DNA of 26,633 nucleotides from positions 1-26,633 of IMG/VR virus record IMGVR_UViG_3300028597_000063; one strand, written 5' to 3'. The stretch is from a virus. Under the pieces are notes generated by a model. That model did no database searches, was not told the origin of the DNA, and saw nothing but the letters and a program-made list of their open reading frames with translations. The first letter of the stretch is position 1; every line of letters starts with the position of its first letter. The translations under genes and the position numbers were made by a program. Positions 1 to 16,629 of this stretch are shown in pieces.

Positions 1-48
1 GTGCCAAGAGTAAGGCACGCCATGGCAACCCAGAGCGGAGGGTCGTAG

Positions 49-483
49 TCACTCGGCCCGCGCATCTTGCAACGCCTGTACCGCCGCGCCTTGGCTCAGC
101 GGCTGCGCCTTATCGTTGCCAAGCGATGGCACCGAGCGTACACGGCTATCTTCACGCGGCTGCACAGTCTCGATGCTCAGTACTTCGAGCGGTGATACGC
201 GGCTACCGAGACCAGCCTGTGCCAGCAGCAGGGCGGTATTCGCCTGGGTGCCCTTGCGCAGGGCATTGGTCAGGATACCGCCGACAAGTGCGTCACACGC
301 TGCGCTGTACGCGGCGGTGTCTTCGTGGGTCAGGTCCTTGACCGCTGCCTGGAACTCGTCGTGCAGCTTCTTCAGGAACACGGTGGCGTCGGGTGCGGCG
401 CACACTTCCAGGCACTCTTGCAGGAACTTCTCGGGCACCACTACAGTGGCTTGGAAACGCAGGTCGAACTTGAAGGTTTGCAT
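49..483 (-). CDS. Hypothetical early phage protein, 144 aa
   Basis: I do not recognise the family. The ATG is preceded by a good ribosome binding site (GGAG, 6 bases before the start), which supports it as a real gene. The first 15 residues look like a beta strand pair (FKFDLRFQATVVV), followed by a helical, alanine-rich middle and a polar C-terminus (about residues 105-144) rich in Q, S, R and D that is probably flexible. There is no signal peptide or membrane segment. It directly follows the 72-aa gene with only 3 bases between them, so the two are probably translated from the same early mRNA. Function unknown; the position among small early genes fits a host-takeover or accessory role, but nothing in the sequence proves this. 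Confidence 0.8.
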   Translation of the reverse strand: MQTFKFDLRFQATVVVPEKFLQECLEVCAAPDATVFLKKLHDEFQAAVKDLTHEDTAAYSAACDALVGGILTNALRKGTQANTALLLAQAGLGSRVSPLEVLSIETVQPREDSRVRSVPSLGNDKAQPLSQGAAVQALQDARAE

Positions 484-486
484 GGA

Positions 487-705
487 TCACTCCTGGGCGA
501 TGTAGAAGATTGGGTTGTAGTTATCGAAGTAGTGGTCATTCCCCGTGCCCAAGTGGGTCACGAAGCCGTCCGGCTCCTCGACGTACTCCATCAGGATGCC
601 GTCGATCCACTTGAAGGTGCCTGACCACGGGTTGCCTCCGTACATCCACACGGCCACGAACTGGCCTTCGGTAGGCTTGGCACTAACTTGTACGAGCTTG
701 TCCAT
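487..705 (-). CDS. Hypothetical early phage protein, 72 aa
   Basis: A small, acidic, aromatic-rich protein (many W, Y and F, for example MYGGNPWSGTFKWIDG near residues 21-36). The alternation of aromatic and polar residues suggests a compact beta-rich fold, but I know no family for it. The start is preceded by GAGGTGAC in a suitable position. It lies 9 bases downstream of the oxygenase-like gene and 3 bases upstream of the 144-aa gene, inside the same tightly packed early cluster. No transmembrane segment, signal peptide or metal-binding cysteines are visible. Confidence 0.75.
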   Translation of the reverse strand: MDKLVQVSAKPTEGQFVAVWMYGGNPWSGTFKWIDGILMEYVEEPDGFVTHLGTGNDHYFDNYNPIFYIAQE

Positions 706-714
706 GATGTCACC

Positions 715-1449
715 TCAGTGCATGTTCAGATTGGACAGGGATTGGTTGCACCAGTGCACCAGCAGGTGCCGTTCCCCATAGATGACTTCGCACCCACGGT
801 GCAGGGTAGTGCGCCCTGCGAAGATCATTGCATGCCCTACGGACAGCGGCGGTACGTTGTACTGCTTGTTGTCACGCCAGACATCAGTGCCACCGCCGAT
901 GAATTCGGATGGGTCGGACAGCGCCACAACAGCGGTGAACTCGCTGTCAATGTCCTGATGCCATGCCGTCTCCTTCGTACCATCAGGGCTGTACACCGCG
1001 CCCTGAATGGACAGGCAGGACTGAACTTCTAGTTGCAACAGCAGGTTCGCGATGGCTGGCATAACCAGCATCCAAACCCCGTTCAGTTGGGTGAACAGTT
1101 CCGGGTGCATGTGGTTCAGCACGCACTCATTGATCTGCGCCTCTGGTTCCTCCTCGTCGTTTGGGGAGTACCCGAGGTTCAGTAAGTGCGCACGCAGGTA
1201 GCGGCACAGGCGAGGGTTCAGGTACGGCATGGAGTACACTCCGGGCGCATACTTCTTGATGTGCGTGTCCCGGAATGCACGCCATTGCGCGTCCCGGTTA
1301 CCGGCGCACGGCCCGTCCTCTTCGGCTAAAGCATTGGCTGTGAGGATGTGCCCACGGTTGGCCTTCAGGTGTGGGTGCAGCCAGTCAAGCGATGCAGGTT
1401 GCATCAACCGTGTCGTGCCGTGTGTGGGTTGTCCAGTCGAGTCGGACAT
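715..1449 (-). CDS. 2-oxoglutarate/Fe(II)-dependent oxygenase-like protein
   Basis: About 244 aa. The C-terminal half has the signature of the 2OG-Fe(II) dioxygenase (prolyl 4-hydroxylase-like) superfamily: H164-Q-D166 in WHQDID, a glycine-rich turn (FIGGGTDVW), then H217 in TLHRG, and R227 ten residues later, which would bind the 2OG carboxylate. These form the family's HxD...H iron triad plus arginine. Such enzymes oxidise a substrate (protein side chain, nucleic acid base or small molecule) while converting 2OG to succinate and CO2; the substrate cannot be told here. The N-terminal 90 residues are not recognised. I chose the ATG at 1449 because GGAG lies upstream; an in-frame ATG at 1488 has no binding site. 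With this start the gene overlaps the preceding 78-aa gene by 65 bases. Placement among early genes suggests modification of host or phage components after infection, which is inference. Confidence 0.75.
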   Translation of the reverse strand: MSDSTGQPTHGTTRLMQPASLDWLHPHLKANRGHILTANALAEEDGPCAGNRDAQWRAFRDTHIKKYAPGVYSMPYLNPRLCRYLRAHLLNLGYSPNDEEEPEAQINECVLNHMHPELFTQLNGVWMLVMPAIANLLLQLEVQSCLSIQGAVYSPDGTKETAWHQDIDSEFTAVVALSDPSEFIGGGTDVWRDNKQYNVPPLSVGHAMIFAGRTTLHRGCEVIYGERHLLVHWCNQSLSNLNMH

Positions 1450-1621
1450 GGTAGCTAGGCTCCCTACTTGATCCGATGTACATGACATCTAGCACGACAG
1501 CAGTACAGCCTACGTGCTGGGGTTCAGGTTGCAGTGCGTGACCGGGGCCACGCACCAGTTTAACTACGTCGCCCGCCTTATGCTTTGGGGCCACGCGGGT
1601 CGGCTTCGCAGCGCTCACCAT
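1385..1621 (-). CDS. Small SH3-like beta-barrel protein, 78 aa
   Basis: Begins MVSAAKPTRVAPKHKAGDVVKL. The pattern KAGDVVKLVRG, followed by strands CTAVVLDVMY and SYHVRL, is typical of small SH3-like or KOW-like barrels, but the assignment rests on pattern only. The start at 1621 has GAGGA five bases upstream; a longer reading from 1684 adds 21 low-complexity residues and lacks a good site. Its 5' end overlaps the membrane protein gene by 44 bases and its 3' end overlaps the oxygenase-like gene by 65 bases, in different frames, showing strong compression of the early region. The last 15 residues (TTHTRHDTVDATCIA) fall in this second overlap. Role unknown. Confidence 0.65.
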   Translation of the reverse strand: MVSAAKPTRVAPKHKAGDVVKLVRGPGHALQPEPQHVGCTAVVLDVMYIGSSREPSYHVRLDWTTHTRHDTVDATCIA

Positions 1622-1892
1622 AACGGTCCTCGAATTGTCGGCAGATGAACTCCAGGGCCTGCAGTTGCTGCCGACCCTGCACACGCTTGGCCCCGGCCAG
1701 CGCTTTCAGGTACGCTGCGAGGAAGAACAGCGCAATGGCGCCAGTGAAGTACAGCGCTGCCTCGCCTGCTGCGAGAATGGCAGCCTGCCGCTCGAATGGG
1801 TCTTGAATCGGCAGATCAGGAAAGCCGACCAGCAGGGCAAGGGCTGCGACCAGCACGAGTACATCCAGCAGGATGGTGGTTAGTCGTTTCAT
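1578..1892 (-). CDS. Small inner-membrane protein, 104 aa, two membrane segments
   Basis: Two hydrophobic stretches are clear: residues 6-23 (TILLDVLVLVAALALLVG) and about 45-63 (ALYFTGAIALFFLAAYL). The N-terminus is short and basic (MKR) and the C-terminal 40 residues are charged and probably cytoplasmic (AKRVQGRQQLQ...EDRYGERCEADPRGPKA). This fits a helical hairpin with both ends inside. The start has GGAG eight bases upstream and overlaps the stop of the acetyltransferase-like gene by four bases (ATGA type), suggesting coupled translation. It is too far from the lysis cassette to be an obvious holin; a role in altering the host envelope, for example superinfection exclusion, is only a guess. 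Confidence 0.75.
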   Translation of the reverse strand: MKRLTTILLDVLVLVAALALLVGFPDLPIQDPFERQAAILAAGEAALYFTGAIALFFLAAYLKALAGAKRVQGRQQLQALEFICRQFEDRYGERCEADPRGPKA

Positions 1893-2377
1893 ACGTTGCG
1901 CTCCATGTAGTGGACAGCCGGGCCGCCCTTTGTGGTGTTGGTTACTACGGACACAGTGCGGAAACCATGTCGAGTGTACAGGTCCAGCAGGTGCGGGTGC
2001 TCAAAACAGTTCAAGCAGTCAGCCCCGGCATCCACAGCGGCACGCATGAGCCAGTCACCCAGCCCCTTGTCTACGTGGTGCAGGCCGATGAGTTCGCCTT
2101 GCAGCACAGCGAAGCCACCGCGCCGGTCGTTGCCCTCCTGTGCTGTGTACACTATGCACTGGGTCTCATACCAGATGCGCTCACGGCCACGCTTGGCTTG
2201 TGGACTGCTGACAGGCCCGATACTGTCAGACCATTCGCGGTAGGCTTTGCCGATTTGAATTGCCAGCTCCCCGCTGTCCGAGCAACCTTCGCGGATCAAC
2301 GGACGGCGTCGTGGGTTGCTTGCCAGGGCATGCACCAGCGGGTCCATGCTGTACTGGCGGATCAGAACTTGTGCCAT
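1889..2377 (-). CDS. GNAT-like acetyltransferase, 162 aa
   Basis: The C-terminal half resembles the GNAT fold: a strand-rich core (FAVLQGELIGLHHV, about residues 89-102), then KGLGDWLMRAAVDAGAD (104-120), like the helix preceded by the acetyl-CoA pyrophosphate loop, and LLDLYTRHGFRTV (130-142), which matches the common GNAT ending in which a residue pair after LY precedes GF. The canonical Q/R-x-x-G-x-G/A loop is reduced to DKGLGDW, so cofactor binding is likely but not certain. GNAT enzymes transfer an acetyl group from acetyl-CoA to an amine; the target is unknown. The ribosome binding site is excellent (AGGAGG, 4 bases before the ATG) and overlaps the stop codon region of the upstream mini-gene. 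An early phage GNAT may modify a host protein, which is inference. Confidence 0.7.
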   Translation of the reverse strand: MAQVLIRQYSMDPLVHALASNPRRRPLIREGCSDSGELAIQIGKAYREWSDSIGPVSSPQAKRGRERIWYETQCIVYTAQEGNDRRGGFAVLQGELIGLHHVDKGLGDWLMRAAVDAGADCLNCFEHPHLLDLYTRHGFRTVSVVTNTTKGGPAVHYMERNV

Positions 2378-2385
2378 GTGTCCTC

Positions 2386-2556
2386 CTAACGCAGACGCTC
2401 AGGCAGTACACCTGAGCCGTATGGCGGAAAGTTTCGGTAGTCCAACTCCCACGCAGCGCGGAGTATGCGCTTGGCATCCTCCGTCAACTCGGGGCGGGGT
2501 GGTTGTATGACGCGGGGCTTCCACCCGCTCGGGTACGACATAACGGGGGCTGGCAA
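2386..2556 (-). CDS. Small hypothetical protein, 51-56 aa, probable TTG start
   Basis: This frame fills the gap between the 87-aa gene and the acetyltransferase-like gene and encodes a plausible protein: after MSYPSGWKPRVIQPPRPELT comes an amphipathic helix (EDAKRILRAAWELDY) and a short tail ending PERLR. An in-frame ATG at 2541 gives 51 aa but has no ribosome binding site. A TTG at 2556 gives 56 aa and has GGAGGGG six bases upstream, so I prefer TTG. That site overlaps the stop of the preceding gene, and the stop TAG of this gene is embedded in the AGGAGG of the next, so all three look translationally chained. No known family. Confidence 0.6.
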   Translation of the reverse strand: MPAPVMSYPSGWKPRVIQPPRPELTEDAKRILRAAWELDYRNFPPYGSGVLPERLR

Positions 2557-2558
2557 TA

Positions 2559-2822
2559 TCAACCCCTCCGATTGGCGTAGGCGTCACGCTTACGCATTGC
2601 CTGCTTGGCTTTGGTGAGGTAGCGCGGGTAGACAGCTTGGCTATCGTCGTTCCAGCTGGGGTCTATTACCGGCAGCTTACCGCCGCCGGGCATCCCCACC
2701 AGAGGGCCCCCTGTGAGCGGTGCGTAGCCCACCACCTCCCCGACGAACCCGAACCTTATCCCGTGGCTCCAGCAGCGCCCAACGCGCACCAGTTCACCCA
2801 CTTCGAATGCTGCGCGGCTCAT
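2559..2822 (-). CDS. Small SH3-like protein, 87 aa
   Basis: Starts MSRAAFEVGELVRVGRCW. The pattern of a short strand with GELVRVG, then GFVGEVVGY and LPVIDPSW, suggests a small beta barrel of the SH3 or KOW type, followed by a basic helical tail (RYLTKAKQAMRKRDAYANRRG) that could bind nucleic acid. The start overlaps the stop of the 180-aa gene by four bases (ATGA), a sign of coupled translation. It resembles the 78-aa protein further downstream in general design, but the two are not close copies. Function unknown. Confidence 0.7.
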   Translation of the reverse strand: MSRAAFEVGELVRVGRCWSHGIRFGFVGEVVGYAPLTGGPLVGMPGGGKLPVIDPSWNDDSQAVYPRYLTKAKQAMRKRDAYANRRG

Positions 2823-3361
2823 GCCTCCACCGCCGTAGCTTCCAGCTTCAGGCTGTGGCGCGCCTCGGTGATGGCCTTCAGCATGGCAGCTTGGGCAGGG
2901 TCAACGAAGCCTACGCCGTCGCTGGCTTTCTCACCCTTCTTGATGAGGGCGTCCAACAGCTTCAGGAAGTCCAGAGGCGCGTCCAGTTTCTCCGGGGCGC
3001 AGTCGTACCACGGCTCAGCTTCAGCGCCTTCCAGATTCGTGCTGCCCTTGCGGTTGAACAGGAACGGTTTGGACTCGTCCAGCTTGCCTTTCTCGTCGGC
3101 GTTAGGCAGCACCTTGCCGTACTTCAGAATCCAGTCCAGAAGGGCTTTCTTGCGGCTACCCTTGGGCATGGCAGCGAACAGATTCTCTAGCACCGATACG
3201 TCACGGTGCTCGTCAACGTGCGCCAAGCATGACATGCCGCACACCTGAATCATGGTGTCCAACTTCTTGCCGACCCTGGCGATGTCGGCGGTGGCCTTAG
3301 CGATAGCGTCGGCGCCTACCAGCAGTTTGGTCTTGATGCTTGGGGTTTTAACGTCGCTCAT
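2819..3361 (-). CDS. Hypothetical early phage protein, 180 aa
   Basis: A mostly helical, lysine-rich protein. The N-terminal 40 residues form a likely amphipathic helix (KLLVGADAIAKATADIARVGKKLDTMI). The middle contains VSVLENLFAAMPKGSRKKAL, then an aromatic segment with PFLFNRKGS and EPWYDC, and a C-terminal helical part with FLKLLDALIKKGEKA. Three cysteines (residues 41, 45 and 120) are too few and too scattered for a zinc finger. I believe similar proteins are found among podophage early genes, but I cannot assign a function. The start has GGAG eight bases upstream. It is the first gene after a 348-base noncoding gap. Confidence 0.75.
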   Translation of the reverse strand: MSDVKTPSIKTKLLVGADAIAKATADIARVGKKLDTMIQVCGMSCLAHVDEHRDVSVLENLFAAMPKGSRKKALLDWILKYGKVLPNADEKGKLDESKPFLFNRKGSTNLEGAEAEPWYDCAPEKLDAPLDFLKLLDALIKKGEKASDGVGFVDPAQAAMLKAITEARHSLKLEATAVEA

Positions 3362-3709
3362 GGTTGTTACTCCGTTTGTGTTGCGTTAGGAATAGTCACA
3401 GTAGATTGCAGGCTGCGGGTCCGGCATTCAATCCTCAGTGAGGCGTGCGCGCCCACCCTGCAATCTCTTTGGCTACTCTTGCGAGTGCGCCACCACACTG
3501 GCGGCGTTCCTGCTAATCAGGCGCTATGCGGCCATTGCGCGGCCTGCTATTCGTTGTCCGTGATACAACGCACGGTCTTGCTGTAGTGGTTTGGCATCAG
3601 TCGTGCTAGCTCTGAACTGGTAGGCGGATGCACTTACACAAAGCCCACCGGGCTGGGCTATGAGGCATTGCGCAGTGCTGACACTCCCGGCACCGCATAA
3701 AGAGCGCCA
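3362..3709 (-). other. 348-base intergenic region with stem-loops, no clear gene
   Basis: No convincing gene is seen here. The strongest structure is a perfect 10-bp inverted repeat, AGATTGCAGG at 3403-3412 and CCTGCAATCT at 3457-3466, enclosing 44 bases. Smaller stems are AGCCC/GGGCT at 3642-3654 and CGCCA/TGGCG near 3489-3505. A 13-codon mini-ORF (ATG at 3427, stop at 3386-3388) begins inside the loop of the 10-bp stem, with GAGG five bases before its start, and ends 25 bases before the 180-aa gene. No sigma70-like promoter was found. The region may process, attenuate or regulate the early mRNA. Confidence 0.5.
3403..3466. repeat. Perfect 10-bp inverted repeat (stem-loop) in early intergenic region
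   Basis: AGATTGCAGG and its exact complement CCTGCAATCT enclose a 44-base loop that can itself fold (GGCG, 4-base loop, CGCC at 3442-3453). It lies about 40 bases upstream of the 180-aa gene. There is no T-run after it on the minus strand, so it is unlikely to be an intrinsic terminator. In T7 early regions such stem-loops between genes are RNase III processing sites; that role here is inferred. Confidence 0.6.
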
Positions 3710-3727
3710 TCATTTCGGCGCACTCTT
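3700..3727 (-). terminator. Weak terminator-like hairpin at end of 106-aa gene
   Basis: AAGAG plus CGCC on one side pairs with GGCG plus CTCTT on the other, with a 2-base bulge and an 8-base loop that contains the gene's stop codon. On the minus strand it is followed only by TTTATG, so termination would be partial at best. It could instead protect or process the mRNA 3' end. Confidence 0.3.
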
Positions 3728-4030
3728 ACGCATGCTTTGCTTACCACGAGCCAGCTTACGTGGGCCGTCCGCCTGCCATGCAGTACCGGCGCTGGGTTTG
3801 GCCCCGCCGTAGTGCACCTCACGCATGCGTTTCTTCTCGCGGTTCCCGTCCGGCCCCATGTCGTTCAACTTCTGTACCTTGCGTTCACGCTTCGCGGTCT
3901 TGTTCGCACGCTGCGCTTCGGCACGCAGCTTGTCCGCCTTCAGCTTGCCTTCGCGGCGCAGCGCAGCACGTTCCTCGGGAGTCCGAGGATCGGTGCCTGC
4001 TGGCCAGCCTACAATCGGTTTATTCGCCAT
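3710..4030 (-). CDS. Basic, charged early protein, 106 aa
   Basis: Starting at MANKPIVGWPAGTDPRTPEE, the protein is very rich in lysine and arginine. Residues of about 22-60 form a long charged helix (ERAALRREGKLKADKLRAEAQRANKTAKRERKVQKL), possibly coiled coil, and the C-terminus is basic and disordered, ending RGKQSMRKSAPK. This looks like a nucleic-acid-binding or RNA-polymerase-binding small phage protein, but no family is recognised. The ATG at 4030 has GAGG nine bases upstream and overlaps the end of the previous gene by 11 bases; an in-frame ATG at 4060 has no good site. A stem-loop overlaps its stop codon. Confidence 0.7.
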   Translation of the reverse strand: MANKPIVGWPAGTDPRTPEERAALRREGKLKADKLRAEAQRANKTAKRERKVQKLNDMGPDGNREKKRMREVHYGGAKPSAGTAWQADGPRKLARGKQSMRKSAPK

Positions 4031-4301
4031 ACTGTGTAACCTCACATTCAATCGGCGCATTGTACTTGCAGCTCAGGAAGCCTGCAACAATCCATGCGTG
4101 GTGCATACCCGGCCCTACTGGAACGTCTATGATCGGCACTACCTCGCCCGACTCGAGTCGTGCGTACACCGACTTGTACGTGGCGAAGCTTGGCGAACAC
4201 ATCTCGATTCCGTCGCCGGTGTCTTGTGTGAAGACTACCTGAACGCTCACTGGTGTTGATCCTTGAAGTAAGTTCTGCAAGTCAAGCGACTTAGGCTTCA
4301 T
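4020..4301 (-). CDS. First early gene: hypothetical protein, 93 aa
   Basis: This is the first well-supported gene downstream of the early promoter array, the position of gene 0.3 in T7. The protein begins MKPKSLDLQNLLQGSTPVSV and is mainly beta strands (VSVQVVFTQDTG, VYARLESGEVVPIIDVPVG, HHAWIVAGFLSC). It is mildly acidic but is not an obvious DNA mimic like T7 Ocr, so I do not call it an anti-restriction protein. The start has AAGGAA eight bases upstream. It overlaps the 106-aa gene by 11 bases. First-expressed phage genes often block host defences; that is inference from place only. Confidence 0.75.
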   Translation of the reverse strand: MKPKSLDLQNLLQGSTPVSVQVVFTQDTGDGIEMCSPSFATYKSVYARLESGEVVPIIDVPVGPGMHHAWIVAGFLSCKYNAPIECEVTQYGE

Positions 4302-4323
4302 CGTCTTTGTTCCTTGTGGTCAA

Positions 4324-4442
4324 TTCGCTTATGGGCTCGCTCTGGCCCCACCCTGTGCCCAGGGTTCGCGCCGTTGATAACGCTGGGTCTGACATGCGGC
4401 ACCGTGCCCGGTATAGCCCGCCAGAGCCAGCTCATAAACGAA
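4324..4442. repeat. Imperfect 23-bp inverted repeat just before the first early gene
   Basis: Bases 4324-4346 pair with 4420-4442 with three interruptions; the outer arm (TTCG...CGAA) and the inner arm (GCTCTGGC/GCCAGAGC except for one mismatch) are both strong. The inside, about 73 bases, contains further short complementary segments such as CCCAG/CTGGG. Its place, about 20 bases upstream of the first early gene, is that of the T7 R0.3 RNase III site. Confidence 0.6.
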
Positions 4443-4461
4443 CTGTAGTGGTTGCTTTGCA

Positions 4462-4519
4462 ATGCACACTGGCTAGGCTTTCCATCCTAACTGATCCGTC
4501 GCCGGGATTCAGTGTGCAT
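4462..4519. repeat. Perfect 10-bp inverted repeat in the early leader
   Basis: ATGCACACTG and CAGTGTGCAT enclose 38 bases in which TAGG/CCTA and ATCC/GGAT also pair, giving a small branched structure. A separate stem AACCTA/TAGGTT with a 4-base loop follows at 4524-4539. These are seen directly; a function in the leader RNA is inferred. Confidence 0.55.
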
Positions 4520-4876
4520 CACAAACCTATCACTAGGTTCTGCCCTATTCGGGATGCCGGAACCTTCTGGTCCGGTCAGCTTCTAGCGGGTATCCCCTTT
4601 CGCCACGTTTCAGTGACCGCTAGCACACTTCTGAGCGTGTGAACTCCCCCTACCCTGCAACCCGCCTAGGAGACGACGGCATCGTTGTGTCTGCGGCTCA
4701 TCCGTTTGGACTTGCTCGGGCGCACGCTGTACTAACCCGTGGTTCTTCCGGCAGCCTAAGCCTTACCCGTTCTCCACCATCCGTCTTGTCGCTACTGCTG
4801 GCACCGTACGCTGCGTTTAAAGCGTCGTCACTAGCCGGTAACCGTGGGAGCTGGTTCCCTGTGTTGCTTGGCGGCC

Positions 4877-4905
4877 ATCTTACTAGCTGCCGGTGTTGCT
4901 GTCAA
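4877..4905 (-). promoter_or_regulatory. Early sigma70 promoter, proximal copy
   Basis: Minus-strand reading gives a perfect -35 box TTGACA (4905-4900), a 17-bp spacer, and -10 box TAAGAT (4882-4877). Transcription would start near 4870 and run towards the early genes. It is one of four such promoters pointing the same way, as with A1-A3 in T7. Confidence 0.8.
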
Positions 4906-5006
4906 GCGTTTGTTTCAGTGTCTGGGTGGTTACGACCACCGTGCTATCCAGACCTAGCGCACCAGTTATTTAAGCGCTTCTGGTGAGTCGCTGTGTTACG
5001 GTGTGC

Positions 5007-5035
5007 AGCTTACCTCTGTGTTGCCAGCTTGTCAA
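5007..5035 (-). promoter_or_regulatory. Early sigma70 promoter, second copy
   Basis: TTGACA (5035-5030), a 17-bp spacer and TAAGCT (5012-5007) on the minus strand. The -35 box is perfect and the -10 box is one base weaker than in the neighbouring copies. It lies 130 bp upstream of the proximal copy. Confidence 0.75.
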
Positions 5036-5158
5036 TCCCCGATGCCTTACGGCCTTACACTGGGTTGCTTCGCTCTGAGGTTGCATCCTTGGACCTTACC
5101 AGTTAGAGCCGTTTGCTCTGGGCTTGGCGTGGGGTTGCTTCCCGTCTTGCTGGTGCCC

Positions 5159-5186
5159 ATCTTACAGACTGTGGCGCCGTTGTCAA
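5159..5186 (-). promoter_or_regulatory. Early sigma70 promoter, third copy
   Basis: TTGACA (5186-5181), a 16-bp spacer and TAAGAT (5164-5159) on the minus strand. The sequence around it resembles the proximal copy, including bases within the spacer and upstream of -35 (GCTTGACA), which suggests origin by duplication. Confidence 0.75.
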
Positions 5187-5307
5187 GCCCCGCCGCTTGA
5201 CTGTGTGGCTGTTATCTTACCCACCAAAGCGCCCTGTGTTCCGTTGGCTTCCCGTCGCAGTTGCTTGGGTATTGCCCGGAGGCCCCAGCAGCGCTGCCAT
5301 GGGTCGA

Positions 5308-5336
5308 ACTGTACAGAGGCGGTGTGTATGTGTCAA
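5308..5336 (-). promoter_or_regulatory. Early sigma70 promoter, distal copy
   Basis: TTGACA (5336-5331), a 17-bp spacer and TACAGT (5313-5308) on the minus strand. The -10 box is weaker than in the other copies, but the spacing and the perfect -35 box match. It is the most upstream promoter, closest to the AT-rich island. Confidence 0.6.
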
Positions 5337-5350
5337 CCACTTTCGATCAT

Positions 5351-5382
5351 CGCTGGCAGAGCACCCGCAGAGCCTGCCAGCG
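5351..5382. repeat. Perfect 9-bp inverted repeat next to the distal promoter
   Basis: CGCTGGCAG (5351-5359) and CTGCCAGCG (5374-5382) with a 14-base loop. It lies 15 bases upstream of the -35 box of the distal promoter, a place suited to a protein-binding site or to a structure at the genome end. No T-run follows on either strand. Confidence 0.55.
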
Positions 5383-5500
5383 GCATTAGGAACCGGGAGC
5401 GCACACGCATGCACCCGAGCCTTAGTCTAGCCACCAAAGTACTGTACAACCACCCAGTGCTATCAGAGTGCAGCAGGAATCACCACGAATGCCCCGGAGT

Positions 5501-5650
5501 GCGCAATAAATCACTCACAGTATTGATCATTTATTAACCAGAATGAGCACAGATTGCGCAATCCAGAGCATTCTTAGCAGGATTCACTAACAATCAAGGC
5601 ATTCTTAGTGGGTAATTTAAAAGGTGCATTTAATGATAAGATTGAGATGC
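5501..5650. other. AT-rich island with inverted and direct repeats
   Basis: About 150 bases clearly poorer in GC than the rest of the window. It holds an AATAAAT/ATTTATT inverted repeat (5505-5511 and 5529-5535), the palindrome ATTGCGCAAT (5553-5562), and a direct repeat GCATTCTTAG (5568-5577 and 5599-5608, 31 bp apart). It lies just upstream of the early promoters. It could ease DNA melting for replication or serve promoter activation; I cannot tell which. Confidence 0.5.
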
Positions 5651-5689
5651 GCAGCAGCGAGATATTGTCATCGGGGATTGGGGGCCCCG

Positions 5690-6350
5690 CCGTGAGCCAC
5701 GGTAGCACAGAGCGCACTGCGCAGCACCAGCACAGCAACGCTAGGCGCTAAGCAACACAGAGTGAACCAGAGGCAGCACAGAGGTGGCCAGAGTAATCCA
5801 GAGTGCACCAGAGCATGCTAAGTGAGTCCAGGGTGATCTAGTGACACTCAACAGTACAGGGCAAAAGAAACAGTGCGGAGCAAAAAGAAACAGAGCCACC
5901 GAGCACGCACAGCCACGCACTGGGCACACTGAGCGCGCCAGAGGAGACCAGAGGCACGCTAAGCACAGCGATGAGCACCAGAGACAACCAGAGGTGCAGA
6001 GCAAGCACAGGTTCGCACTGTCACACTAGCGTGCTCCACTGCTCACCCAGCGAGCCAGAGCACACCAGAGCACACCATAGTGCGCCAGAGCTTGACAGGG
6101 TGGCCAGAGCACGCTAAGCTATGCACAGTGGATGAGAGATGCCACCCACCCTAGCGAAGTTTGCACTCCAGCCAGAGGACCGACGGGGGAAACCGGGTGC
6201 GTGTCGGGTCGGGAAGGGCCTCGGATAGATGCAGCAAATTTCGGGTGCACGTAGAACCCGCTAGCCACCCAGTCCACCAGAGAACACCAGGCACGCACGA
6301 GCAGGCCCAGGGCACCAGAGGCACCCAGGCTCAGTTCGTAACTCATGCTA
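5690..6350. repeat. Degenerate 10-bp tandem repeat array, core CCAGAG
   Basis: At least fourteen exact CCAGAG copies occur on the plus strand, none in reverse. They keep a spacing of about 10 bp within blocks: 5788, 5798, 5808; 5938, 5948; 5978, 5988; 6055, 6065, 6085. Degenerate units (CCATAG, GCTAAG, CCAGGG, TCTAGT) fill gaps in the same phase, for example at 5828 and 6075. A stretch at about 6120-6265 is mostly free of the unit. T7 has arrays of a 7-base unit (CCTAAAG) beside its terminal repeats; the setting here, between the last late gene and the early promoters, matches. A few short open frames cross the array, but their composition follows the repeat. Confidence 0.7.
6185..6218 (+). 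other. G-rich tract with G-quadruplex potential
   Basis: Five runs of at least three G (6185-6189, 6195-6197, 6206-6208, 6211-6213, 6216-6218) are separated by 5, 8, 2 and 2 bases on the plus strand. One loop is slightly longer than the usual limit of seven. The tract lies in the repeat-poor part of the decamer region. Confidence 0.4.
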
Positions 6351-6352
6351 AC

Positions 6353-6877
6353 TCAGGCTAGCTCAGGCAGCTCCTCCCACTCAATGGCCCACTTCCCAAG
6401 TGTAGTGCCAGATGGTGTGATGACAATGTAGTAAGTACCAGCACCGAGGATGCGCAGACCATCTAGCAGGTCGGCATTGCCCGAGCCACCACCGGCTGTG
6501 CCAGAGTCGCTAAGCAGTACCTCACGCTCAGTGCCGCCAGTAACGCTACCACCTACGAGCGCAGTCGTTAGGCCCACTACATCCCCGCCGAGGGTGTTCA
6601 TGCAGAACTTAGTGGCCAACGCTGTGAACGTACCGGACTCGGTACTACCTGTGCGCACCACAGCTCTCGCTGCACCACGGCCAGTCCATAGGCGCTGAGA
6701 GGTCAGGAGGAAGGGTACGGTGAATACCAGCTTGATAGTCACGACGGCATCAGCGAACTCACTGTACGCTCGGAACTTGTGCTTATGCAACAGCCCTAGG
6801 CTGAGGTCTTGCGTAATAGCAGCACCACGGAAGGTGGTGCCGCTCTCGTACTGCCCAGTGAGCATAGAGAACGGCAT
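6353..6877 (-). CDS. Beta-rich putative virion protein, 174 aa
   Basis: The last gene before the long noncoding region. From MPFSMLTGQYESGTTFRGAA the sequence shows alternating strands (VVTIKLVFTVPFLLTSQRLW), a Gly/Thr/Ser-rich middle (GSTESGTFTALATKF, LVGGSVTGGTEREVLL) and a C-terminal strand pair (TYYIVITPSGTTLGKWAIEW), which suggests a jelly-roll-like or beta-sandwich structural protein rather than an enzyme. The family is not recognised. GGAG lies six bases before the ATG at 6877; a longer reading from 6913 adds 12 residues and overlaps the next gene. It is transcribed with the late genes, so a minor virion or receptor-related component is plausible but not shown. The stop lies at the edge of the decamer repeats. 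Confidence 0.7.
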   Translation of the reverse strand: MPFSMLTGQYESGTTFRGAAITQDLSLGLLHKHKFRAYSEFADAVVTIKLVFTVPFLLTSQRLWTGRGAARAVVRTGSTESGTFTALATKFCMNTLGGDVVGLTTALVGGSVTGGTEREVLLSDSGTAGGGSGNADLLDGLRILGAGTYYIVITPSGTTLGKWAIEWEELPELA

Positions 6878-6887
6878 GTGCTTCTCC

Positions 6888-7085
6888 TTATGCGGCAGCA
6901 GCCACAACAGCATCTACCGCTGCCTTCAGTGCAGCCAACTCTGCGTCGATGCGGGTACGCTGCGCCGGGTTGATGGTAGGGCCATTGAAGGTACCCTGCG
7001 ACAGCTTCTGGATGTCCCAGTTGGACTTGGCCAGGGCGTTGGCCAGGGCTTCGAGTTGTACACGGGTTGCGTATTGAACAGCCAT
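6888..7085 (-). CDS. Small helical late protein, 65 aa
   Basis: Two helices separated by an FNGPTINPAQRTRI linker: an N-terminal one (TRVQLEALANALAKSNWDIQKL) and an alanine-rich C-terminal one (IDAELAALKAAVDAVVAAAA). The sequence shows no membrane segment or signal peptide. It looks like an oligomerising small structural or accessory protein. GGAG lies nine bases before the ATG. It sits between two other late proteins of unknown function, 10 and 25 bases away, and is probably co-transcribed with the lysis genes. Family unknown. Confidence 0.7.
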   Translation of the reverse strand: MAVQYATRVQLEALANALAKSNWDIQKLSQGTFNGPTINPAQRTRIDAELAALKAAVDAVVAAAA

Positions 7086-7110
7086 GGGTGAATCTCCTTA
7101 CAGGTTGGGA

Positions 7111-7431
7111 TTAGGAAGCGGACAACACGCCACCGGTGAGAGCACCGCCAGCGACAGTCGGGGTAAAGAAGGTGCCAGTGCCAGTGATGGTCACACCACT
7201 GATCTTCACACCGTTGCTCAGCACAACCTGGGTGGCTGGCAGCGGAGCTGGGCCGAAGCCAGCGTCGGTCAGGGCAGTCACCAGCGCAGCGCATGCAGCA
7301 TCAATGTCTACAGCTTGACCGGCGGTGATAGGTGCAGCGTTCTCAGCAAAGCGCTGGAGCGAGTGCGCGGCGATAACAGCACGGCGTTGCAGGGTCAGCT
7401 GCTGGGCAGCGGTCTTGGTCTCGATGGTCAT
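7111..7431 (-). CDS. Hypothetical late protein, 106 aa
   Basis: The first 60 residues are helical and alanine-rich (TAAQQLTLQRRAVIAAHSLQRFAENAAP, then IDAACAALVTALTDAGFG); the last 40 are strand-like and rich in Gly, Thr and Val (VVLSNGVKISGVTITGTGTFFTPTVAGGAL). This two-part layout fits a small virion or fibre-associated protein, but no family is recognised. GGAG lies upstream of the start. Its start overlaps the stop of the Rz1-like gene by four bases (ATGA), so the two are probably translationally coupled. Confidence 0.7.
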   Translation of the reverse strand: MTIETKTAAQQLTLQRRAVIAAHSLQRFAENAAPITAGQAVDIDAACAALVTALTDAGFGPAPLPATQVVLSNGVKISGVTITGTGTFFTPTVAGGALTGGVLSAS

Positions 7432-7637
7432 GGTGTGACTCCGTTCAGTTCATTGCACAGCTCTACGGCTGCGTGGTAATCCAGCAGGCCCTGGGCCATA
7501 CCGGCGTTGGTACTAGCGTTCACCAGCGGGTGCTGGCACGCTACCGGGCTTGGTGCAACGGATGCGCTGGCACAGGCTGTCAACAACAGCGGCAGGCACA
7601 GACTCAGCGCTCCAAGCAGGGTTCGACTTGAGTGCAT
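7428..7637 (-). CDS. Rz1: Outer-membrane spanin subunit, Rz1-like lipoprotein
   Basis: 69 aa with a lipoprotein signal peptide: basic start, hydrophobic core (LLGALSLCLPLLLTAC) and lipobox L19-T-A-C22, so about 48 residues remain after processing, anchored by lipid to the outer membrane. The mature part is short with several prolines, as usual for o-spanins. It starts within Rz in the +1 frame and extends beyond its end, the common overlapping Rz/Rz1 arrangement. Rz and Rz1 join across the periplasm and fuse the inner and outer membranes in the last step of lysis of Gram-negative hosts. GGAG lies upstream of the start. Confidence 0.85.
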   Translation of the reverse strand: MHSSRTLLGALSLCLPLLLTACASASVAPSPVACQHPLVNASTNAGMAQGLLDYHAAVELCNELNGVTP

Positions 7638-7848
7638 AGTCTAGCTCCTGGCGGGCCTCCTGGGCCTCGCGTGCTGCTCGCTGCGCGCCCTTCCGGGCAC
7701 GGTCGAGCTGTGTGTTGGCCTTGGCGAGTTCGCCGCGCAGGGCGTCCCGCTCGGCCCCTGCACGGGTGCCTATGTCGATAGCCATGTACAGCGCGACGGA
7801 CAGTAGGCCGATCAGGAACACGGCTGTTACGGTAAGCTTTGACGGCAT
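7513..7848 (-). CDS. Rz: Inner-membrane spanin subunit, Rz-like
   Basis: 111 aa starting MPSKLTVTAVFLIG. One N-terminal membrane segment (about residues 5-24) anchors it in the inner membrane; residues 30-75 form a long, charged, alanine-rich helix likely to be a coiled coil (ERDALRGELAKANTQLDRA...), which spans the periplasm in this family. The end contains CQRIRC, where cysteines may form disulfides. The ATG at 7848 has GGAG eight bases upstream and overlaps the endolysin end by 22 bases; the longer reading from 7968 would lie within the endolysin gene and is rejected. It pairs with Rz1, which overlaps it by 125 bases. Confidence 0.85.
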   Translation of the reverse strand: MPSKLTVTAVFLIGLLSVALYMAIDIGTRAGAERDALRGELAKANTQLDRARKGAQRAAREAQEARQELDYALKSNPAWSAESVPAAVVDSLCQRIRCTKPGSVPAPAGER

Positions 7849-8342
7849 AACTCGTACTCCTTCTGGCGACGGTTCTCCAGGCCCCGCACAGGCTTGCCCT
7901 GTACCGTTGCCTTGAAGCCCTTGGCTACCCCATGCCTGCCCTTCCACGGCGCAGTGATGGCTGCGCATGCAGCCTCCCAGTCACCGCGTGCAAGCGGCTT
8001 GATGAAGACGGGGTGCACCCAGCCGGTGACACCTACGTTGTAGGCCACCGACAGCATAGCCGCCTTGAGGCTCTCAGGCGCCTTCTCAGGCACGTACTTG
8101 GCGATCCCGGCCCAATGCTTGTCCAGGCTCTTGCGCAGCAGTACGGTGCATTCCGCGTCCGTGTACCGCTGCTTCGGAGTACCGGCAGTCTCACCGTAGC
8201 ACCACGTGGGCACACCGCCGATGTCGGCATAGGGTACTAGCTGGGGACCTTGCGGCCCCGACTCAATGGGACCGAGGAAGGCCCCGGCCAACGCGATGAA
8301 GCCAGCCGCGCCACCGGCGAGCAGCTTATTCCTTAGGTGCAT
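7827..8342 (-). CDS. Signal-anchor-release endolysin, GH24 lysozyme-like
   Basis: 171 aa. The N-terminal segment (LLAGGAAGFIALAGAFLG, residues 7-24) is weakly hydrophobic and rich in Gly and Ala, typical of signal-anchor-release endolysins, which are exported in an inactive membrane-tethered form and freed when the holin depolarises the membrane. The catalytic region reads E27-S-G...VPYAD40...T46-WCYGET. The D-x5-T part fits GH24 lysozymes, but the glutamate lies 12 rather than 8 residues before the aspartate, because of an extra SGPQGPQ-like stretch. The rest (LKAAMLSVAYNVGVTGW, RGLENRRQKEYELC) agrees with the phage lysozyme core. It would cut the MurNAc-GlcNAc bonds of peptidoglycan. It overlaps the holin stop by 17 bases. 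Confidence 0.85.
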   Translation of the reverse strand: MHLRNKLLAGGAAGFIALAGAFLGPIESGPQGPQLVPYADIGGVPTWCYGETAGTPKQRYTDAECTVLLRKSLDKHWAGIAKYVPEKAPESLKAAMLSVAYNVGVTGWVHPVFIKPLARGDWEAACAAITAPWKGRHGVAKGFKATVQGKPVRGLENRRQKEYELCRQSLP

Positions 8343-8532
8343 ACAGCAGCTCCTTCTTCTTGCGGGCGATCTTGATTTCGATCACAGCCTTGTACAGCTG
8401 GAAGCAGACAAGGATGCCAGTGAGGATGGAAACCACGGTGGGGATCGAAGGCACCGTGAAGTACGCTGCCAGGTACGCGGTAGACGGTGCTGCGGTCGTG
8501 GCGCGTTCAGTCACGATGTCTTTGATGCTCAT
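8326..8532 (-). CDS. Holin, small class II-like membrane protein, 68 aa
   Basis: From MSIKDIVTERATTAAPSTAYLAAY the protein has one clear hydrophobic stretch (about residues 25-51, FTVPSIPTVVSILTGILVCFQLY with a weaker preceding part) and a highly basic C-terminus (IARKKKELLYAPKE), typical of T7 gp17.5 and phiKMV-type holins. It would form lesions in the inner membrane that set the lysis time and release or activate the endolysin. The ATG at 8532 follows CGGAGGTAAC, a very strong site, and lies one base beyond the terminase stop. A longer frame in the same phase across the terminase gene is a shadow. Order holin-endolysin-Rz-Rz1 supports the call. Confidence 0.85.
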   Translation of the reverse strand: MSIKDIVTERATTAAPSTAYLAAYFTVPSIPTVVSILTGILVCFQLYKAVIEIKIARKKKELLYAPKE

Positions 8533-8533
8533 G

Positions 8534-10348
8534 TTACCTCCGGGTGCGGCGGCGCTGGATGGCTGCGCGTGTGCCTGCGGTTTTGGGTACTTGGGTGTCC
8601 GAGTAGCCCATAGGGTTGGCCATGTGCGTGCGGGCGTCAGCTTCGCGGCGCTTCTGTGCAGCCTTGGTCTCGTCCTGCGCCAGCACGTGCTTGAAGTAGC
8701 AGATGCTCGCGGCCCAGGCCTCGATACGGTCGTCGTGTTGCAGGGATTGACGGTCAGTGGTGATAGCGCTGATCTGGCTGAACAGCGAGTAGCTTGGGCG
8801 CTTGTCTGCGCCATGCTGCTTGCCTGCCTCAGCGTCACCCTCGAACACGCCCTTGTGCAGCACGATACGATGGCGCTGCATGGCAGACACAACCGAGTCG
8901 ATGATGCGCTTCTCTTTCTGACCAGTGCTGTACCGGCCAACGACGCCAACAGACCCGAAGTACGGATCAGGCGGGAATACTTCCATCGTGATAGGGTTGG
9001 TGTACCCCAGCTTGCGCTTCTCGAAGTGTGCGCGCAGGTTGATTTCGAACAGGCCGTGGCCCATGTTCGACTCACACTCTACGACAGTCACACCGTATTC
9101 CTTCACCTTGTCGGCAATCTTGTCGGCGTTCTCGTTGGTCAGACCGCCCTTCCACCCGGTGACGTACAGCGAGTGGATGTATGGGCCGATGGCCGTGGAG
9201 ATACCACAGCCAATCTCATCCGCACCACCACCGGCAGGGTCCAGGCACATTACACGCAATCCCGGCTTCACGAACTCGCAAGGGACCTGTACCGGATGAT
9301 ACATCGTGGCCATAGCGACGGGGAAGTCCCGAGGCAGCTCTACCTTCTGCTGAGGTGCAGCGAGGTACGGCAGCATCTCGGGGATGCTTTCCCAGTCGAA
9401 GTTGGCGACCAGAAGGTCACTCAGCTTCAGCTGTTGGCGAGCTGCATCACTAAGGCTAGTGTCGAGCATGTGCTGGAGGCTGAAGTCTTCCGGGCCTTTG
9501 TCCAGCTCTTTCTCGATGAGGTCGTCTTCGGTATAGCGGTCGGGGTCGGCAGGGGCACCTCGGGTGCCGTCGATTCCGTACCCGGTTTGCAGCTCGGGGT
9601 TTGCCCGGATGCGATCAAGCAGATAAGGTGCAAGCCTGTCGCCATACTTCTCTACCTCGTCAGGCGTTGGGTATCGCCCAGGCCAAATGCGCAGCTGGAA
9701 GCCACGGCCTGGGAGAGAGTTGTAAATCGAGTCCTTGGACTGAGGCGTGCCAAGGTACAAGATATCGCCGTGCGTACAGATCGACGAGAATTCCTTCGAG
9801 AACTGCATGAGCTTCGCACGCTCGGTGCTGGTCATGGAGTTCTTGTTGGTTTCAATGTCGTCCGGGATCAGCAAATCTGCCCGCTTACCGGGCAAGTTCG
9901 CCGTAATCCCGACGCATGCTACAGAGGGCGACTTGTCAATGCCCTTGAGCGCGTAGTGCACATCGAATGCTTCTACCGAGGATCGATCGCCTGCTTGCCG
10001 ATCAGGGCGCAGGTATTCGAGGATTTCCCAAGTTGTGATAAGGCGGATCACCAGAGTGGCAACTTCCGACGCCTGCTTCTCACCACCGGATACAATGAGT
10101 ACCCGGGTCTGAGGACGTTGGATGATTCGCCACACTGCGTACAGGGCTGCGAGGGTGGATTTAGCTTCACCCCGCTGGGCCATGACCATACGCAACCGTG
10201 GTCCGTTCTCCATGTACTCGGAGATGTTCGCTTGCATCTCAGTCAGCGGGAAGCCGAGAAACTTCATGCCGTCCGCTGCGAAGTCCACAAAGTGCAAGTA
10301 GTGGTCCGCCACAACGGTGGCATGCTGAATACGAATCTCGACTTCCAT
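8534..10348 (-). CDS. Large terminase subunit (T7 gp19-like)
   Basis: 604 aa, the motor and nuclease that packages DNA into the prohead. The ATPase half shows a Walker A-like loop (AQRGEAKST, residues 57-65), Walker B (ADLLIPDDIE, 157-166) and a coupling motif (LYLGTPQ, 197-203). The nuclease half shows the RNase H-like acidic residues: LD370PAGGGAD, VVECES with E424, and a C-terminal HDD (539-540). The length is close to T7 gp19 (586 aa). It is adjacent to the small terminase gene (9 bases away) and one base before the holin. GGAG lies upstream of the start. A role at unit genome ends is expected, since T7-like terminases make direct terminal repeats. Confidence 0.95.
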   Translation of the reverse strand: MEVEIRIQHATVVADHYLHFVDFAADGMKFLGFPLTEMQANISEYMENGPRLRMVMAQRGEAKSTLAALYAVWRIIQRPQTRVLIVSGGEKQASEVATLVIRLITTWEILEYLRPDRQAGDRSSVEAFDVHYALKGIDKSPSVACVGITANLPGKRADLLIPDDIETNKNSMTSTERAKLMQFSKEFSSICTHGDILYLGTPQSKDSIYNSLPGRGFQLRIWPGRYPTPDEVEKYGDRLAPYLLDRIRANPELQTGYGIDGTRGAPADPDRYTEDDLIEKELDKGPEDFSLQHMLDTSLSDAARQQLKLSDLLVANFDWESIPEMLPYLAAPQQKVELPRDFPVAMATMYHPVQVPCEFVKPGLRVMCLDPAGGGADEIGCGISTAIGPYIHSLYVTGWKGGLTNENADKIADKVKEYGVTVVECESNMGHGLFEINLRAHFEKRKLGYTNPITMEVFPPDPYFGSVGVVGRYSTGQKEKRIIDSVVSAMQRHRIVLHKGVFEGDAEAGKQHGADKRPSYSLFSQISAITTDRQSLQHDDRIEAWAASICYFKHVLAQDETKAAQKRREADARTHMANPMGYSDTQVPKTAGTRAAIQRRRTRR

Positions 10349-10357
10349 TTAGGTCTC

Positions 10358-10624
10358 CTAGTCGTTCTGCACGAGCTGCATGATGCCAGCCCGCTTGGAG
10401 TCGCGACCCGCAGCCGCGTCCTTGAGACGAGACTGAAGATCACGGAGGTCCTTCTTGTCCGCAGGGTCTGCGGTGATTTCGTTGTCCTTCAGGAACTTTG
10501 CAGCGCCGGACAACAGCGCCGGAGTCACCATGACTTCCTCGTCGAGGCAGGTTTGAATCTCCCCGATGTAGGCCTTGGTGACAAGCCGGTGCAGCGCGCC
10601 AAGCTCGTCCTTGGTCGCGGTCAT
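10358..10624 (-). CDS. Small terminase subunit (T7 gp18-like)
   Basis: 88 aa, the same size as T7 gp18 (89 aa). Nearly all helical and charged, beginning MTATKDELGALHRLVTKAYI, with LDEEVMVTPALLSGAAKFLKDNEI in the middle, a pattern familiar from T7-type small terminases, and a basic tail. These proteins form rings that recognise the concatemer and stimulate the large subunit. Its place directly between tailspike and large terminase gives strong support. AGGAGG lies five bases before the ATG. Confidence 0.85.
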   Translation of the reverse strand: MTATKDELGALHRLVTKAYIGEIQTCLDEEVMVTPALLSGAAKFLKDNEITADPADKKDLRDLQSRLKDAAAGRDSKRAGIMQLVQND

Positions 10625-10634
10625 TGTTTCCTCC

Positions 10635-12791: not shown

Positions 12792-12800
12792 ACTAGCTCC

Positions 12801-15800
12801 TTACTCAGGAATGAGATTTGCGAAGCCCCGGATGCCGGGGATAATGGACAGGATTGGGGTCGCGCTGATAGCGGACTCGGCAGCTGCTCCGAAGTTGCCC
12901 TGGGCTGCTGCACCTGCGGTCTTGTAGATTCGGTCAGCCAGGATCAAACCTGGTGCACCGAACTGCTGCTTCTCTCCAGTGATTACACCAAACAGGTCAG
13001 AGAACAGGCCGAAGCTACCCATCTGCCCGAAGGACTTAGCGATGAGTTCTTTCTCGTCTTTAATCTCTTTGCCCTGCATGGTGCTGTTCACTGCGGTGGC
13101 GAGCATCGACAGTGGCATCTGGTACAACATGAGCAAACCCAGTCCTGCGAACCCTTCGCGGCCAATGGTCCCGGCGAGCACTTTGTTGTGCGCACCAAGG
13201 ACGAAGCTGCGGAAGGTGAAGATGAATTTACCGACTTGGCTGAACTGTGCGAAGGCAGGGATTTCACCGGTGCGGTTACGCAGCACGGAGTCGTCCATCG
13301 CCTTGGTCAGCGGGCCACGGACCTCAGCCCACAGGCCATCCGACCACTTTGCAGTGTCGGTGCCCACGCGCTTGATTTCGTCCGTTAGTCTTATCATAGT
13401 ATGCACCTTTAACCCATACTGCTCCCAGGCTGCCATGGCCCGTTTATCGCCCTTCCCAGCCTTGGTCAGGGAGTCCACGACGAGGTTAGCCACCATGCCC
13501 GCCTGCTTGGTCTGAACGTACTTCTGTGCGTTCAGGTACGGCACCAGTTGCTGAGCCTGCTGGAGCGCCAGCTGCACGCGGCTGCTGGTTGGGATGTCGA
13601 AGTTGTCCTCCAGTCGTTGCACGAATGGCCGCATGCGGATATCCGCCGAGGCGTTCCGACGCAGGATGCTGTGCAGCTGCGTAGCAGTGCTGCCATCGTT
13701 GGTCGCGTTCTGCATCATCTTCCCGAAGCCCGGCATCTCCTGAGCCAGGTACCGCAGGGAGCGCAGGGCACCATACCGCGCCATAGCCGGGGCAAACTCA
13801 GTAATCTGCCACAGGCCGGACGAGGCCAGGCCCACCATACGGGTTGCTGCCTGGGACATGCGCAGCAGCTGGGGGATATCCTCACCCACCGGACGTCCGA
13901 GGATGGAGTTGATGGTCTGGTCGAACAACTCCACCGCCTCCTTGCGCTTGGCTTCTGACTTCACGCTGTGGGCCAGCTCGGTACGCATGGCCCCAAGCTC
14001 AGACACGGAGCCAAGCCCCTTGCGGGCCAGGGCCGATTGACCTGCCACCCGGTCAAGGTACTGTTCTTGGATGCGGGTGATGTCGGTGCCAAGCAGATCA
14101 CCAACAGTGAACCGCTCCCCGCCTACATTGATGCCGTGGCGGTAGTCGAGGTCCACGCGGTGCTTTAGGAATGGCGCCTTACCGGCCTCGTCCACCTTGC
14201 CCGCCAGCAGGTCCAGCACTCGTTGCATGCGGTCCTTCGGCACGCCCTGGTTCTGGAGCATGTCGCGGAGTTCGGCCAGGGTCTCGTTACCGGCATGGCC
14301 ACGAAAGGCGGTGTCCTCGAAGTAGCCCTTGCGGCGAGCACGGTCAATGATAGCCTTTGCCACATCGCCTGCCAGCTCTTGATCCCACCCGTTGGCCCGG
14401 ACCAGCGAGGTACGCAGCATGCTGACGATGGTGCTGTTTGCCTTCTTCTGGTCCATGCCCTGCTTGGCCAAGGCCGCGTCCATGCGCTCGATGGAGTCAT
14501 TGTCCCAGCGGCGGCTCACCCAGCCAGAGCTGGATTCGACCTCCTCGGCACCCTGTACCCCGGCAGCCTTCATCTCAGCCAGCGCAGCGGAGTTCGCTTG
14601 GTCGAGGCTGTCGGCCATGGCGCGAATCTCCTTGGACTCTGCGGAGTTCCATGGGAGGCTCTGCCGTGCTGCTTGCTCACGCCCCTGCATCTCCCGCATC
14701 ACACGGCGCTCGATGGCCTGCTGAGCTTCTAGTGCCTTGCCTGGTGTCATGACCTGGGCGCGGATGCCAGCACCGGCCTTGGACATTTCTGCCCGCAGCA
14801 GGTCCTCGTACTGATACTGGTACTGGGCCAGGTCCGCACGGATGGCACGCGTCTGCGATACCACGCTGTCGCCGGTCATGTTGATAGGGTCATCGACCAG
14901 AGTGTCAGCGATCTTCTTGGCCTCGGCGCTGTAGCTTGCCAGCGACTTGTGCAGGGACCAGCTTAGGTTGCGGGCCAGCTTGGTGGTGGTCGCGTCCTCG
15001 TTCGCAAACAGGTTCGATGCCACTGGCACCTCGGGTTCAGGCATGACGCCCACCTTGTAGAAGCTGGCTGTTCCGTCCTTCTCCAGCACCTGGGATCGCA
15101 CTCGCAGGGGTTGCTCGGCCAACTGTTCAGTCAAGCCCATGGCACGCACCAACGCGTTCTCATCTTTGGCACCCAGGCCCAGCACGCGGCGGATCAAGTC
15201 AACGGCCTTGCCTAGCACCGTCGTACCTTCCATTGGGATCGACTTCAGGAAGTCCATGAACGGCTTGTCGTTAGAGAACAGGCCCGCCATGAACTCGTCG
15301 GCATTGGTCAGGTAATACTTGGCATTGCCGCCCAGTGGCTTCCCCTTCGCCTTCTTCGCTACCCTCTGGTGCAGGTTGTCAATCTCCCGCACAATCCCAC
15401 CGATGGCAGTGTTGGGCTGGGCGCGCCCGAACTCCAGGCGGTGGGCCGTTACGGCGTGGGCAATCTCGTGCAGGTGCGTCCAGTCCGGTGCGCCGTCCCG
15501 CATAGCGATTAGGTGACGACCTGGGCTGTAGAACGAGCGGGAGTCCTTTCGGGTGCTCTTGTGCACAGGGATGTCGCCCACCATCAGCTCGTCAAGACGC
15601 TTGGCCAACCCGGACATCAGCGGGTCCTTGGTGGCAGCGATGCGCGCCAGTGTTGCGCGCGCTGTACCTACTTGGTCCCCGAACTGGTCATTGGCGGCCC
15701 TTACCTTGCGGGCGTACGTGGCCACATCATCCGTGCCTGCCACCACTGGCTGAACCTCGTCCGCAACCTTGGGCGCCACAGTCTCGTCAGGCTTTGGTGT

Positions 15801-16625: not shown

Positions 16626-16629
16626 AGTG

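Follow-up and report, generated by a model that had tools for sequence, protein, structure and literature searches.

The window, by which we mean the whole stretch of 26,633 nucleotides analysed here, is a 26.6-kb fragment filed as a virus record of IMG/VR (IMGVR_UViG_3300028597_000063), with its main genes all on the minus strand. Those between 26633 and about 6119 encode virion, packaging and lysis proteins (internal virion proteins, a tail spike, terminase, endolysin and an Rz-like protein), and small early genes, also on the minus strand, run from 4301 downward. Since late genes, a non-coding stretch and early genes follow one another in this order, we infer that the record crosses the junction of a permuted or concatemeric genome. 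Direct terminal repeats are found at the corresponding place in the records of phiKMV, LKA1 and Ep4. Diverged short repeats of the CCAGAG type, with a strong AT skew, occupy positions 5746–6141 of the window, ahead of the presumed terminal repeat; in T7, short-repeat arrays adjoin the terminal repeats. The window terminase is 75% identical to those of Pseudomonas phages MKPT02 and Bertil and 61–63% identical to those of phages of Sphaerotilus, Macromonas and Variovorax (63% for Sphaerotilus phage R1). Bertil and Sphaerotilus phage R1 are classified in Krylovirinae, and the nearest packaging protein thus lies within this group. On sequence grounds, the window virus is a phiKMV-like podovirus.

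The first early ORF (4020–4301, minus strand) encodes 93 amino acids and belongs to phrog_28861. It is followed by a basic ORF (3710–4060, minus strand; 116 amino acids, 32 Lys plus Arg against 12 Asp plus Glu) that is a distant member of phrog_5722 (E 2.8e-5), the family of phiKMV ORF1. Positions 3000–8000 gave no close DNA relative when compared by megablast with a phage collection, and no relatives of the early proteins encoded at 4020–4301 and 2819–3361 were found in IMG/VR. Further along the early region, the minus-strand gene at 715–1488 codes for a 2OG-Fe(II) oxygenase (phrog_61) and that at 1889–2377, also on the minus strand, for a member of phrog_2563 whose acetyltransferase match stayed below threshold. 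Phages of the phiKMV type are described in PMC7552054 as having an acetyltransferase, Rac, directed against the host polymerase.

Upstream of these genes, the first-pass annotation had described four minus-strand copies of TTGACA, each followed at 16–17 bp by a −10 box. All four were confirmed, at 5336, 5186, 5035 and 4905, as were the distances of 150, 151 and 130 bp between them. They comprise promoter 1 (5308–5336; TTGACA, 17 bp, TACAGT), promoter 2 (5159–5186; TTGACA, 16 bp, TAAGAT), promoter 3 (5007–5035; TTGACA, 17 bp, TAAGCT) and promoter 4 (4877–4905; TTGACA, 17 bp, TAAGAT), with a start expected near 4870 for the last. When a site was defined as an exact TTGACA, a spacer of 16–18 bp and TANNNT, the whole window held five, namely the four array copies and one promoter-like site on the opposite, plus strand (6092–6120; TTGACA, 17 bp, TAAGCT). 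Simulating the window 400 times with a second-order Markov model gave an average of 0.14 such sites and never more than 2, and not one simulated window contained two sites within 460 bp of each other on one strand. The four-site array is far beyond chance. A looser promoter scan returned 6 sites in positions 1–20000 against 4.9 ± 2.0 expected, and would alone have masked the array.

Tandem near-consensus boxes at promoter spacing are what characterizes early-promoter arrays of the phiKMV/T7 type, and gene order and relatives place the array between the genome-end region and the first early gene, pointing to the early genes. The proposal that these are host sigma70 promoters for the early region is well supported by their position and by conservation of the array in relatives, and we consider the four boxes almost certain to be such promoters. 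Two further proposals fared less well. Similarity beyond the boxes had been taken as a sign of duplication, and 15 nt around the −10 boxes of the 4905 and 5186 copies (4869–4883 and 5151–5165) are indeed 87% alike, but ungapped flanks match, over all pairs, at 2–8 of 12 positions upstream and 5–9 of 20 downstream. Because the flanks are so dissimilar, we rejected duplication as the origin of the array. The suggested decayed fifth copy (GGAACA, 17 bp, TAAGAT at 5219–5214) is present as written, but its −35 box matches at 3 of 6 positions and it is a weak candidate.

Arrays of three to five exact-TTGACA promoters in the reading direction occupy the same place in 16 of the 21 loci scanned, a set that left out MR18. 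LKA1 has two such promoters, Axy21 one, and Ep4, VAC51 and phi-2 none, the phi-2 record beginning shortly ahead of the leader RNA described below; BK-30P, scanned outside this set, has no site of the exact-TTGACA kind. The boxes are thus kept in the nearest relatives, with zero or one site in the more distant Ep4, VAC51, BK-30P and Axy21. Among IMG/VR loci, all 13 fetched by the basic protein carry 2–5 array promoters, and the six retrieved with the type II pattern (see below) carry 4, 4, 0, 4, 5 and 4, the zero being phi-2. Leftward promoter sites also occur upstream of the array in 8 of the 21 loci (the window, Bertil, phiKMV, SeaD2, L027, SeaP4, phiGM22-3 and Axy21); that of phiKMV, at 146, lies within the annotated terminal repeat. 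A host promoter pointing leftward is also present at the left genome end of T7.

Four copies had at first been called a generous array. This is not supported: four early promoters are annotated in the phiKMV record and four in that of LKA1, so that four is the usual number, and PMC5638911 counts four in phiKMV and five in PAXYB1. Mapped early promoters of the sigma70 type are likewise reported in PMC10134795 for LUZ100, a more distant T7-like Pseudomonas phage. Because relatives carry and annotate such arrays, the array is, by this comparison, a conserved feature of a kind already known.

A structured leader of 569 nt (4302–4870, minus strand) separates promoter 4 from the first early ORF. Its predicted fold of −220.3 kcal/mol (z −3.62) was equalled by none of 100 shuffles. 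The leader holds no minus-strand ORF of 60 or more amino acids, and its core has stops in all three sense frames. This core, which we term type I leader RNA (4446–4681, minus strand), is delimited by alignment A1 and its compensatory changes; between it and the first ORF stands a long minus-strand hairpin (4321–4445; arms 4321–4346 and 4420–4445, 85% complementary) that could possibly be an RNase III site. We found the core by blastn in Draal01, Draal02, Draal03, SeaD1, SeaD2, Eisa9, Luke-3, IPa-2, Ep4 and KBC54, and by pattern search in four IMG/VR contigs, while the type I pattern retrieved no contig from a collection covering 84,980 species of bacteria and archaea. At the seven loci measured, the core begins 167–248 nt past the last −35 box.

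Alignment A1 consists of eight distinct type I sequences; L025 and the close copies Eisa9, SeaD1, IPa-2, Draal01 and Draal02 were left out. KBC54, the 5′ half of which differs, was kept out of both A1 and A2 and thus serves as an independent test of the type I model, R1. The alignment contains 31 pairs in five helices, with 98.7% of its 237 cells paired and compensatory changes, altering both sides, in 14 of the 31 pairs. None of 500 shuffles did as well on four of five measures, and 82 did so on the count of further pair types; when the structure was slid along the alignment, 35–49% was paired. G-U pairs fill 21 of the 237 cells, and these pair in the sense strand only. Helix 1 illustrates the variation, occurring as CUCUCUA/UAGAGAG, UUCCCUA/UAGGGAG, CUUCCUA/UAGGAAG and UUCUGCA/UGCAGAG. 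R1 matched KBC54, which is outside the model, over its full length with 47 bits; its match to the window (4522–4681) scored 109 bits, with the window sequence part of the model by construction. Compensatory conservation is concentrated in the core upstream of the terminal hairpin, where the loops are invariant. These comparisons show that the leader RNA is conserved by structure.

No Rfam 15 family reached the gathering cut-off in the window, and with a relaxed E-value positions 4250–5400 and the loci of five relatives gave three sub-threshold matches, two to eukaryotic lncRNAs and one to a snoRNA. A literature search, to which most subscription papers were external, returned no title or abstract describing the leader RNA. 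Loci L001–L007, which came from the terminase search, have no leader match to R1 or to the type II model R2. A 49-nt match in MR18 falls inside an annotated gene and was dropped. We also observed a 28-nt stretch, 27 of 28 positions identical, shared by phiPsa17 (L038, 675–702) and a variable stem of the Luke-3 leader RNA (L019, 1044–1071); the phiPsa17 copy lies in a T7-type early leader, and Xanthomonas phage Laurelin and Providencia phage PSTNGR1 also have matches to this stretch.

The slot held by type I RNA is occupied in other relatives by a second class, type II. Drael01 and Draal03 share promoter-proximal DNA (33 nt, 97%), after which Drael01 continues into this different RNA, found also in Bertil, MKPT02, phi-2, phiNV3, phiGM22-3, VSW-3 and SeaP4 and, more distantly, in LKA1. 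An alignment of seven type II sequences gave 28 pairs, 7 of them with compensatory changes; 0 of 500 shuffles were as good on four of five measures, and 10 of 500 on further pair types. MKPT02, LKA1 and HHBS51_1 had been left out of alignment A5, and R2 then matched them with 109, 30 and 26 bits, respectively, and also matched each of the six IMG/VR loci that the type II pattern had retrieved. This pattern found no contig of bacteria or archaea. The MKPT02 leader (L012, 5486–5661) carries an extra hairpin within the conserved GCGGA loop of the type II RNA.

Neither R1 nor R2 matches the leader class of the other. Both classes contain the loop UAGGCGGA and the 3′ motif AAGMAACYACC, read by eye, but since the models do not cross-recognise, common descent of the two is only suggested by these short motifs. 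The phiKMV leader (L017, 1270–1745; z −4.45) matches neither model, and at least 88 phage records hold most of its sequence; it may represent a third class. For the L046 and L048 leaders the fold z-score is near zero, with a range from about zero to −1.1 over L046, L048 and L052, and in Bertil, MKPT02, SnaR1 and Axy21 the antisense strand scores about as low as the sense strand. In view of all these values, the argument for an RNA rests on the compensatory changes and not on fold z-scores.

The small basic protein that most type I carriers encode in the first ORF behind the RNA belongs to phrog_5722/28721; in L028 and the window it is encoded by the second ORF. Among the type II carriers scanned, phi-2, Drael01, Bertil and VSW-3 have phrog_24696 at this place and LKA1 and HHBS51_1 have phrog_14276, with weak cross-matches between the families. 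The first ORFs of VAC51 and Axy21 gave no match to them, and no Pfam match was obtained for the basic protein family. First genes after the type I RNA differ among carriers, being of an MSRVAKK type in Luke-3 and Draal03, of an MNQIG type in L028 and L026 and of another in the window. The components also occur together outside podoviruses: HHBS51_1 (PQ287641.1; L029, 1260–1956), an unrelated 76-kb Pseudomonas myovirus with tail sheath and baseplate genes, combines a TTGACA promoter with a leader and a basic protein that both resemble those of LKA1 (82% over 355 nt for the leader, 82% over 85 amino acids for the protein).

Altogether, we put at roughly three in four the probability that the promoter array feeds a functional, conserved leader RNA, transcription from the array being predicted. 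On DNA entry, the four sigma70 promoters would load host RNA polymerase at the left end of the phiKMV-like genome and give rise to nested early transcripts, all with the structured leader just upstream of the first early gene. The leader RNA, alone or with the basic protein, would act in cis on the host polymerase and suppress pausing or termination, which would let the enzyme reach the phage RNA polymerase gene, which is 15.7–17.5 kb away from the leader RNA in the three carriers read (Luke-3, Ep4 and VSW-3). In phiPsa17, a T7-type Pseudomonas phage, the polymerase gene starts at 4598, and neither an R1 match nor a phrog_5722 relative was found; an R2 match of 13.9 bits (E 0.19) lies inside the polymerase gene and is not credible. 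This link between the RNA and a distal polymerase gene compares three carriers with one non-carrier and is tied to phylogeny. According to PMC7552054, phiKMV-like phages draw host polymerase to their early and middle genes through strong sigma70-like promoters, and their own polymerase gene is located immediately upstream of the structural genes.

As a function for the leader we would prefer anti-pausing because of the place of the leader, its distance from the promoters, the different first genes behind it, the link to a distal polymerase gene and the analogy with put RNA, the effect of which lasts at least 10 kb (PMC9378689). Several observations count against it. A simple scan of the Luke-3 and Ep4 early regions found no intrinsic terminator to overcome; Ep4 has the type I RNA without an exact-TTGACA promoter; the basic protein of the window is encoded by the second gene and is only a distant family member; and 9 of the 13 IMG/VR basic-protein loci, which are of the phiKMV type, match neither R1 nor R2. 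Taken by itself, the antitermination step is proposed as possible but doubtful. The fuller proposal is rather unlikely, namely that a new class of phage leader RNA would, with a small basic protein from the first or second gene of the early operon, make host polymerase processive and termination-resistant over the ~16 kb before the phage's own polymerase, as part of a promoter–RNA–protein module swapped among podoviruses and at least one myovirus.

A plainer account, to which we give somewhat less than an even chance, is that of an ordinary early array as in T7 and phiKMV, with the leader serving as a passive or stabilising 5′ UTR and RNase III cutting the terminal hairpin so that translation of the first gene is released or activated. 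T7 early RNA is processed by RNase III. The window, type II leaders and phiKMV have long hairpins just ahead of the first ORF, the phi-2 record annotates an inverted repeat (388–475) ahead of its first gene, and in 7 of 9 type I leaders a first ORF begins 11–12 nt past the RNA motif, if a short spurious ORF of the window is included. Neither a spacer nor a cleavage site, however, explains why compensatory conservation resides mainly in a core upstream of the hairpin with invariant loops, and the same core precedes different first genes. A role of the hairpin in translation or RNase III cleavage would be compatible with antitermination and may accompany it.

Alternatively, the leader might be excised as a trans-acting early noncoding RNA that binds, for example, a host protein or defence factor, with the basic protein as its partner or chaperone. 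Two RNA classes in one slot behind near-identical promoter-proximal DNA (Draal03 and Drael01) are consistent with this, as is the movement of the promoter–RNA–protein set to an unrelated phage, which an exchangeable early function would be expected to show. Nevertheless, no promoter–terminator unit of its own was seen and the leader RNA abuts the first gene, and we regard a trans-acting RNA as improbable. That the TTGACA copies are packaging or concatemer-processing repeats at the genome end, as the adjoining CCAGAG-type repeats at 5746–6141 might suggest, is scarcely credible, as the boxes hold a promoter spacing of 16–18 bp while their flanks diverge, and the direct repeats annotated in phiKMV, LKA1 and Ep4 stop short of the early promoters or leader.

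The leader beside the promoter array is an RNA supported by covariation, has no Rfam 15 match and sits where the phage begins to take over transcription. With the polymerase gene of phiKMV-like phages far downstream, it makes the reach of host polymerase directly testable, and the two leader classes and the basic protein can serve as markers in early regions whose annotation is now mostly blank. In T7, tandem host promoters at the left genome end (A1–A3) drive the early genes, an arrangement that resembles that of the window; T7 has three promoters, and its polymerase gene is among the early genes, not far downstream. phiKMV has four tandem sigma70-type promoters (897–1272 of NC_005045) between terminal repeat and first early gene and a leader of ~0.5 kb followed by a phrog_5722 gene, but its blastn matches list only phiKMV-type relatives, with no alignment here, and its leader lacks an R1 or R2 match.

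Two RNA-based systems of other phages offer a parallel for the leader itself. The put RNA of HK022 is, as described in PMC9378689, likewise a structured leader of early transcripts made by host polymerase, with putR ~270 nt after the start site. At ~70 nt and two stem-loops (PMC9378689), put differs from the leader core described here, which measures 173–236 nt and has other hairpins; its consensus structure appears to depart from the put-type pair of stem-loops. Lambda N binds nut RNA by an arginine-rich motif (PMC4496710), whereas the basic protein here, without a Pfam match, is basic in its overall composition and its RNA binding is putative. As with lambda N and nut in that source, the module would pair an RNA element in the leader of an early operon with an early RNA-linked protein.
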